Notes under the pieces: model-generated
What the model saw: the letters and a program-made list of their open reading frames with translations, nothing else
Told to the model about the DNA's origin: nothing
Database searches by the model: none
Part shown: positions 2,149-60,266 of the stretch, piece by piece
Layout: the number at the start of each line of letters is the position of its first letter
Numbering within the stretch: position 1 is the stretch's first letter
Source of the DNA: an uncultured Olsenella sp.
Lineage (GTDB): Bacteria; Actinomycetota; Coriobacteriia; Coriobacteriales; Atopobiaceae
Direction of reading: 5' to 3'
NCBI GenBank assembly: GCA_900314535.1
Contig: OMVT01000012.1
Span: 1-64,000 of the forward strand
Length of the DNA: 64,000 nt
Position numbers and translations under genes: made by a program

Positions 2149-2238
2149 ATGTTCGCAGCCACCGACAATGCAGCTCTGAGCGCTCAACGCGTGCTGGGTG
2201 CATGGTGGCGTACAAGGACTTCGAAACTTCCGGCGTGA
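2149..2238 (+). CDS. Trp leader peptide (attenuator) upstream of trpB2
   Basis: A 29-codon reading frame with SD AGGAAGG 9 nt before its ATG encodes a peptide with tandem Trp codons (TGG TGG at 2203-2208) in the context LGAWWRTRTSK. Its TGA at 2236 lies 27 nt before a strong intrinsic terminator, which in turn lies just before a tryptophan synthase beta gene. Immediately after the Trp codons, ACAAGG (2212-2217) can pair with CCTTGT (2245-2250) past the stop, as expected for the 1:2 helix of a ribosome-mediated attenuator. I could not find an equally convincing antiterminator helix. An in-frame ATG at 2140 would add three residues. Confidence 0.75.
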   Translation: MFAATDNAALSAQRVLGAWWRTRTSKLPA

Positions 2239-2264
2239 CGACGGCCTTGTCTTCATACACATCT

Positions 2265-2300
2265 GGGGCTCTCGGTTACGTACCGGGAGCCCCTTTTTTT
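2265..2300 (+). terminator. Attenuator terminator before trpB2
   Basis: GGGGCTCTCGGT (2265-2276) pairs with ACCGGGAGCCCC (2282-2293): 12 bp with one G-T wobble and loop TACGT, followed by seven T. It lies 44 nt before the trpB2 start with no full gene before it, so it can only act as a conditional leader terminator. Confidence 0.88.
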
Positions 2301-2343: not shown

Positions 2344-3741
2344 ATGGGCGCAGAAGCAGCAAAGACCGATCCTTACCGCATCTATCTGAAGGAAGACCAG
2401 ATTCCGACCGCCTGGTACAACCTGCGTGCCGATATGCCGGAACCGCCCGAACCGATGAGGCTGCCGAATGGCAAGGTCGCGACGGTCGACGATATCAAGC
2501 CAGTCTTTGCAGACGAGCTCTGCCGCCAGGAACTCGATGACACGACGCGCTACTTCGAGATTCCCGCTCCTGTCATGGAGATGTACAAGGTCTACCGGCC
2601 GAGCCCGCTCTGTCGTGCCTACAACCTCGAGCGCGCGCTCGACACCCCGGCGAAGATCTATTACAAGTTCGAAGGCAACAACACGTCCGGCTCGCACAAG
2701 CTGAACTCCGCCCTTGCCCAGGCCTACTATGCCTATGCCCAGGGCATCACGAACATCACGACCGAGACCGGTGCTGGCCAGTGGGGCACGGCGCTCTCCG
2801 AGGCAGCAGCGCACTTCGGCCTCAACCTCGACGTGTTCATGGTGAAGTGCTCGTATGAACAGAAGCCCTTCCGCCGTTCTGTCATGCAGACGTTCGGCGC
2901 GACAATCACGCCGTCGCCGTCCGATACGACCGAGGCAGGCAGGAAGATCCTTGCCGCCGATCCGACGTGCACGGGATCTCTCGGCACCGCCATCTCCGAG
3001 GCGGTCGAGCGTGCGCTCAACGTGCCGGGCAACAAGGGACGCTACCAGCTCGGCAGCGTGCTCAACCAGGTCGTGCTCCATCAGTCGATCATCGGCCTCG
3101 AGTCCTATGAGGCGCTCCGTGAGCTCGGCGAATATCCTGACATTGTTATCGGCTGCTGCGGTGGCGGCTCGAACTTCGGTGGCCTCATCGCCCCCTTCAT
3201 GCGCGACAAGCTGACAGGCGTGCATCCTGATACACGCTTCATCGGTGTCGAGCCGGCAAGCTGCCCGTCGCTTACCCGCGGCGTCTATGCCTATGACTAC
3301 GCTGATACGGGCCAGACCTGCCCGCTCTGCAAGATGTATACGCTCGGCAATGGCTTCATCCCGAGCCCTGACCATGCAGGTGGCCTGCGCTATCACGGCA
3401 TGAGCCCAATCGTCTCGAAGCTCAAGCACGATGGCTATATGGAGGCTGTCGCCGTGAAGCAGACTGATGTCTTCGCTGCAGCAGAGAAGTTTGCAAAGCT
3501 TGAGACGATTCTGCCGGCACCGGAGAGCTCGCACGCAATCCTTCAGGCCATCCGCGAGGCAGAAGCCTGCCGAGAGACGGGCGAGGCGAAGACGATCCTC
3601 TTCGGACTTACCGGCACCGGCTACTTCGATATGGCCGCTTATGACAAGTACAACAAGGGCGAGCTCGAGGACCATATCCCCACGGACGAAGAGCTGCAGG
3701 CTGGCTTCGATACGATTCCCCATATTCCGGGCATCCAGTAG
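2344..3741 (+). CDS. trpB2: Tryptophan synthase beta-like protein TrpB2
   Basis: A 465-residue PLP enzyme of the TrpB2 branch (longer than about 400-residue TrpB1, with the N-terminal YLKEDQIPTAWYNLRADMP typical of this branch). It condenses indole with L-serine to tryptophan. The PLP lysine lies in NTSGSHKLNSA (about residue 118) and the phosphate-binding loop is GCCGGGSNFGG (about residue 270). No trpA is nearby; TrpB2 enzymes usually act without a TrpA partner and can use free indole. The start follows AGAGGAGCAAG. The upstream Trp-rich leader and terminator indicate expression when charged tRNA-Trp is scarce, supporting a biosynthetic or indole-salvage role. Confidence 0.93.
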   Translation: MGAEAAKTDPYRIYLKEDQIPTAWYNLRADMPEPPEPMRLPNGKVATVDDIKPVFADELCRQELDDTTRYFEIPAPVMEMYKVYRPSPLCRAYNLERALDTPAKIYYKFEGNNTSGSHKLNSALAQAYYAYAQGITNITTETGAGQWGTALSEAAAHFGLNLDVFMVKCSYEQKPFRRSVMQTFGATITPSPSDTTEAGRKILAADPTCTGSLGTAISEAVERALNVPGNKGRYQLGSVLNQVVLHQSIIGLESYEALRELGEYPDIVIGCCGGGSNFGGLIAPFMRDKLTGVHPDTRFIGVEPASCPSLTRGVYAYDYADTGQTCPLCKMYTLGNGFIPSPDHAGGLRYHGMSPIVSKLKHDGYMEAVAVKQTDVFAAAEKFAKLETILPAPESSHAILQAIREAEACRETGEAKTILFGLTGTGYFDMAAYDKYNKGELEDHIPTDEELQAGFDTIPHIPGIQ

Positions 3742-59910: not shown

Positions 59911-60012
59911 TTCCTCGTCTGGATGCAGCGGCAGATGTGAACAGAGGGGAAATGTTCATATATCCGGATACAAGTCGCGATGCCTGTGCTAAGCTTGCCC
60001 ACAGGCAATGAC

Positions 60013-60266
60013 GGAGAGGTTCGTCTGCCGCGTAGCTGGAGGACAGAGAAGGGACCCTAGGCTGAGAGGTCCTCGCGAAGGCTGGCGGACGAAGTTCACT
60101 CCACCAGCTGCAACCTGAACGCATCTGCCAGTAGGGAAGCCGTCTGCTCCACGGAACGGAGCTCAACGAGTGGGCGCTCGCGACGCACAAAGCGTGCAGT
60201 GTCAATCAAGGTGGTACCGCGGTCATGAGGCCGTCCTTGAGCAAGTATGCTCGAGGACGGCTTTTT
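60013..60266 (+). promoter_or_regulatory. T-box leader of pheST, Phe (UUC) specifier
   Basis: The T-box sequence AGGTGGTACCGCGG is at 60209-60222. Stem I is GGAG...CTCC (60013-60016 with 60099-60102) plus TCGTCTGCC/GGCGGACGA; the bulge between them holds AGTTCA, presenting TTC (60095-60097), a Phe codon followed by A as expected. The terminator GCCGTCCTTGAG/CTCGAGGACGGC with five T ends at 60266. Uncharged tRNA-Phe should prevent termination and switch on pheST. Confidence 0.93.

Follow-up and report, generated by a model that had tools for sequence, protein, structure and literature searches.

The question raised by the start of the window, by which we mean the whole 64,000-nucleotide stretch of Olsenella DNA analyzed here, is why a tryptophan synthase beta gene standing by itself should carry what looks like a tryptophan attenuator. 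The gene, trpB2 (2344-3741, + strand), is intact and encodes a TrpB-like pyridoxal phosphate enzyme of 465 amino acids. Its product matches two profiles over the full length, NF009057 (663 bits, cut-off 366, E = 1.9e-199) and TIGR01415 (559 bits, cut-off 518.85, E = 5.4e-168), and is only distantly related to TrpB1, scoring 137 bits with TIGR00263, where the cut-off is 392. The nearest solved chains, 6HUL, 4QYS, and 6HTE, bear the annotation tryptophan synthase beta chain, and the lysine (HK) and the ETGAGQWG and GGGSN motifs are kept when the protein is aligned with 6HUL chain B (E = 9.5e-118). The neighbors that we examined encode an FxLYD protein, an M20 peptidase, and an MFS-type transporter. 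A preliminary description of this locus had seen no trpA or other trp gene around trpB2, and for the four biosynthetic families tested the absence extends genome-wide: trpA, trpC, trpD, and trpF are all missing from the assembly (2.41 Mb, 98.5% complete), as is tnaA (tryptophanase). Positive controls for the four families gave matches in 14 of 14 reference genomes. Since trpA, trpC, trpD, and trpF are all absent, external indole is the natural reading of the tryptophan source, and TrpB2 can probably turn scavenged indole into tryptophan.

Upstream of the gene, the + strand carries the full anatomy of a tryptophan leader. An SD-like AGGAAGG (2133-2139) lies 9 nt before an ATG at 2149, which opens a leader peptide ORF, MFAATDNAALSAQRVLGAWWRTRTSKLPA, running to 2238. 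There are two in-frame ATGs, at 2140 and 2149, and the length counted from 2149 is close to that of the leaders of relatives, which carry comparable Trp runs. Tandem Trp codons, TGG TGG, occupy 2203-2208 (most relatives have TGG TGG TGG), and the leader ends with TGA at 2236-2238. The stop codon is followed by a strong intrinsic terminator (2265-2300) made of a hairpin with a 12-pair stem and a 5-nt loop (2265-2293) and seven T (2294-2300), and then, after a gap of 44 nt, by the ATG of trpB2 at 2344. All the elements that the preliminary description had listed, from the SD and tandem TGG codons to the spacing before trpB2, can thus be read in the sequence, and only its interval, 2149-2300, was drawn too short, leaving the SD outside. 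A CATACA/TGTATG inverted repeat (2254-2259 and 2300-2305) flanks the terminator and its U tract; similar flanks, GCATACA...TGTGCGC, occur in several relatives. The leader folds far better than its dinucleotide shuffles (z = -4.8), which argues that it is more than a product of chance.

We scanned positions 1700-2600 against Rfam with E values up to 10, and no curated family for the leader was found there; we therefore identified it by comparison. The matches were weak only, the best being a suhB-like terminator similarity of 20.9 bits where the gathering score is 41, and a promoter scan found no sigma-70-like promoter. Both results would fit a hairpin that simply terminates an upstream transcript or a small RNA, with Trp codons that fell in front of it by chance. 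We hold this to be extremely improbable, as the Trp codons, their frame, the position of the stop, and the antiterminator described below are conserved and covary among relatives. Chance Trp codons in particular are already refuted by the retention of a Trp-codon leader across families.

This retention is apparent from a survey of trpB2 in one genome per bacterial or archaeal species, from which we took the best 80 loci, all from species other than that of the window and all Coriobacteriia wherever the record names so narrow a group. A Trp-run leader (WW or WWW) with a terminator precedes the gene in 47 of these 80. With the window included, a Trp-run leader was assigned to 48 of the 81 classified loci and a T-box to 29, and the other 4 have neither or have truncated upstream DNA. 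The peptides of relatives carry WW or WWW near the end, followed by a short tail. Among 53 distinct sequences, that of the window included, the leader stop lies 18-36 nt past the first Trp codon and the start of the terminator 55-68 nt past it. The preliminary description had proposed looking in relatives for a conserved leader ORF with its Trp codons and for compensatory changes; on the first point, Atopobiaceae, Coriobacteriaceae, and Eggerthellaceae all keep the Trp codons, the place of the stop, and the terminator. Leaders with a single Trp codon before a terminator and trpB2 occur in one genus (L120, L129, and L152, from genomes G078, G077, and G079, respectively), for example VGRWHLGKA, and are possibly attenuators that are decaying or have been retuned. 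In four loci (L037, L090, L049, and L050), the terminator lies more than 150 nt upstream of trpB2, with room for a further element or further control steps. Two kinds of apparent overlap between the classes proved spurious on inspection: T-box motif matches within the Trp codons of WW leaders, as in genome G049, and a WW reading within a T-box (G071, locus L091).

If the leader is an attenuator, then another RNA segment should compete with the terminator. The preliminary description had the terminator right and missed the main alternative pairing of the switch, which involves a strand overlapping the leader stop codon (2226-2249, + strand). This segment pairs with the 5′ arm and loop of the terminator at -27.9 kcal/mol, and only 2 of 200 shuffles do as well. 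Across relatives, cognate pairs of stop-codon segment and terminator reach a mean of -22.2 kcal/mol versus -17.8 kcal/mol when permuted (z = -7.7, with none of 5,000 permutations as good and kinship ignored). In the same test, the terminator arms, a positive control, gave z = -13.7, and the 30 nt that precede the Trp codons, a negative control, gave z = -0.6. A fixed-column count on 22 sequences of non-Atopobiaceae type found 228 of 259 cells paired (88%), versus a mean of 81% and a maximum of 85% in 1,000 permutations; 19 cells showed double changes, where permutation gave a mean of 6.4 and at most 15 (kinship ignored in this count). The covarying changes reach into the terminator loop (TAA/TTA, AGA/TCT, and TGA/TCA), and pairing within the terminator alone is therefore an insufficient cause. 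The second point on which relatives were to be consulted, compensatory change, thus came out in favor of the leader, with covariation in the competition between terminator and antiterminator. By this comparative evidence, we conclude that the stop-codon segment is the predicted antiterminator.

Simulated co-transcriptional folding suggests how a ribosome would choose between the two structures. For transcripts ending at 2276-2290, a ribosome placed on a Trp codon leaves the terminator 5′ arm and loop engaged in upstream pairing at a probability of 0.63-0.83. When the ribosome is placed at the stop codon instead, this probability drops from 0.40 to 0.07 across that range of ends. Computationally, the antiterminator thus excludes the terminator and is freed by a ribosome stalled for tryptophan. 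In the full-length window RNA, the terminator is always preferred thermodynamically, and any switching must therefore be kinetic. In folding without a ribosome, transient formation of the antiterminator is seen as well, and the untranslated state is therefore not clearly "off."

The preliminary description had pointed to another pairing, between ACAAGG (2212-2217, + strand), just past the Trp codons, and CCTTGT (2245-2250, + strand), a candidate protector helix. These strands do fold locally with each other in the window, although no better than shuffled sequences (p = 0.28). In non-Atopobiaceae, the helix covaries (z = -4.3), with GGAACAGAAG/CTTCTGTTCC in L078 as a covarying counterpart; in Atopobiaceae, the clade of the window, it does not (z = +0.6). 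As the central switch it is thus unsupported in the clade of the window, by shuffles and permutations alike, and supported in the other lineages.

Taken together, this locus very probably holds a classical ribosome-mediated attenuator through which the level of charged tRNA-Trp governs a solitary trpB2 within a tryptophan-salvage regulon. With ample tryptophan, the ribosome would pass both Trp codons, reach the stop at 2236-2238, and cover the antiterminator strand (2226-2249); the terminator (2265-2293) would then form, and transcription would end before trpB2. When little tRNA-Trp is charged, we infer that the ribosome stalls on 2203-2208 and leaves the antiterminator strand free to pair with the emerging 5′ arm and loop of the terminator, so that RNA polymerase enters trpB2. 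The enzyme would in turn make tryptophan by condensing scavenged indole with either serine or phosphoserine. TrpB2 may prefer O-phosphoserine. Stalling could also control trpB2 by another route, with Rho-dependent termination or mRNA decay in place of competition between intrinsic terminator and antiterminator, and the long gaps (>150 nt) before trpB2 in L037, L049, and L050 would leave room for such extra control. The strong intrinsic terminator and the covarying antiterminator speak against this route, which we consider very unlikely.

We searched the same genome for further leaders of this kind with the DNA pattern TGGTGG-N70-100-TTTTT. This gave 14 overlapping matches; among those that we viewed downstream, two have a Trp-run leader, one before trpB2 and one before a TrpP-like transporter operon. 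The second leader, MIRIAYTADNMNMNWWWRDVNTIGQS, with its stop codon and a terminator, has WWW and begins at C32:4315 (L169, 1016-1130). The operon behind it encodes two TrpP-like proteins, a double ECF ATPase, and a CbiQ-type T component. Against PF17099 (gathering score 27.2 bits), the first TrpP-like subunit falls just under at 24.9 bits, and the second passes at 31.1 bits. A WWW leader precedes the first TrpP-like gene in all 30 family loci fetched, that of the window's genome included. From these matches, it is probable that the operon imports tryptophan. The shared leader type would put the probable importer and the probable indole-to-tryptophan enzyme under common control, and it strengthens the attenuation reading; with the ECF operon behind a leader built like that of trpB2, importer and salvage enzyme would form a single tryptophan-starvation regulon. 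The central proposal of the preliminary description, ribosome-mediated tryptophan attenuation of trpB2, is thus supported by the conserved Trp codons, stop, and terminator, by the covarying competition, and by the second WWW leader.

Another tryptophan sensor is found before the same gene in sister lineages. In 31 other genomes of the family, a T-box stands in place of the leader, and wherever the specifier of a T-box before trpB2 was read, it is UGG (60 of 60, with some genomes counted in both collections). Nine trpB2 loci match the Rfam T-box, RF00230, with E values from 1e-9 to 2e-19, one of them over the gathering score. A UGG T-box before orthologous trpB2 is independent evidence that the gene answers to tRNA-Trp. 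For the trpB2 of the window itself, we rejected a T-box (stem I with its specifier, GGTGGNACCGCG antiterminator bulge), the scan of 1700-2600 with E up to 10 having given no T-box match. The genome of the window does hold two T-box matches, neither of them upstream of trpB2. A T-box leader with UUC at the specifier position lies directly before pheS and pheT (window 59999-60241, + strand; 50.2 bits, below gathering), and a 59.7-bit match (L170, C36:34684-34923, - strand) precedes an ileS-like gene identified by eye.

On a quick TrpB2 tree, the label of leader or T-box changes at least 4 times, 3 of the changes being forced by starred branches; read in this way, the gene tree needs 3 to 4 changes between the two sensors. 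The two groups also differ in gene content: trpC is present in 4 of 32 leader genomes versus 23 of 31 T-box genomes of the family (Fisher p = 7e-7, kinship ignored), and in 3 of 25 versus 11 of 16 when only better assemblies are counted (p = 4e-4, kinship again ignored). Some relatives with a WWW leader do carry trpA or trpC, so the leader is not restricted to auxotrophs. On balance, we favor a scenario in which a Trp leader peptide and a UGG T-box were swapped several times before orthologous solitary trpB2 in Coriobacteriia, and in which, in tryptophan-auxotrophic lineages, the leader type runs a regulon of ECF tryptophan importer and indole-to-tryptophan enzyme, making gut indole cross-feeding a regulated supply of tryptophan.

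The relatives with trpA or trpC have tryptophan regulation although they would not need indole salvage, and they bear on whether TrpB2 makes tryptophan at all. Attenuation could be real and the enzyme could mainly serve another reaction, such as deamination of serine or threonine or the conversion of an indole derivative, its tryptophan regulation being historical; the distance from TrpB1 noted above would agree with this. We find it unlikely. Two different tryptophan sensors stand before orthologous trpB2, the regulon partner is a probable tryptophan importer, its closest relatives of solved structure carry a tryptophan synthase beta chain annotation, with the motifs kept in the alignment to 6HUL, and a bifidobacterial TrpB makes tryptophan from exogenous indole (PMC11085991).

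The mechanism itself is already known. Among the classical trp attenuators predicted by Seliverstov et al. (2005, PMC1262725) for Corynebacterium and Streptomyces is one upstream of a trpB2A operon of C. diphtheriae, and that paper cites experiments on the attenuators of C. glutamicum and S. venezuelae. Like the leader in the window, they combine two or three UGG codons, a GC-rich terminator with poly-U, and a competing antiterminator. Their targets are trp biosynthetic operons or trpS, whereas here one target is a solitary trpB2 and the other an ECF importer operon, in a host that has no trpA, trpC, trpD, or trpF. For its Actinobacteria, a list of genomes without Coriobacteriia, the same paper reports no T-boxes of the classical terminating type. 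The Trp T-box resembles the leader in sensing tRNA-Trp charging before orthologous trpB2, and it differs in that its RNA reads the tRNA directly, whereas the window's leader would be read by a ribosome. Tryptophan synthase beta makes tryptophan from exogenous indole in Bifidobacterium, a gut actinobacterium in which this was shown (PMC11085991), and in Chlamydia trachomatis, which uses indole through trpRBA (PMC4042155); by analogy, we propose the same for TrpB2 here. The settings differ: Bifidobacterium has a TrpC-TrpB fusion and Chlamydia has TrpBA under TrpR, whereas the TrpB2 of the window has no TrpA and would be under attenuation. Indole salvage by TrpB1 and TrpB2 of T. kodakarensis is cited within PMC11085991, and the archaeal chains 6HUL, 6HTE, and 4QYS belong to the same TrpB2 family by sequence, though to different organisms. 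Our literature searches, with subscription journals outside their reach, turned up no description of this leader from Coriobacteriia, no paper on Olsenella with indole and tryptophan synthase, and, for T-boxes with Coriobacteriia, no title concerned with this leader. What is added is a salvage rather than a synthesis target, control shared with a transporter operon, and repeated exchange with a T-box.

The regulation of an enzyme is a guide to its purpose. The role of TrpB2 in making tryptophan is usually argued from activity in vitro; two independent tryptophan sensors on orthologous solitary trpB2 are strong genomic evidence that the stand-alone enzyme makes tryptophan here. The exchange of leader and T-box also offers a clean natural comparison of two modes of sensing one tRNA at one gene. 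Indole is both a microbial signal and a precursor of a uremic toxin, and the regulon predicts which gut Coriobacteriia, among them Olsenella, Thermophilibacter, Collinsella, Adlercreutzia, and Gordonibacter, would take it up, and when. A gut-type bacterium without a tryptophan pathway appears to switch on trpB2 and a probable tryptophan importer only when tryptophan becomes limiting for its ribosomes.
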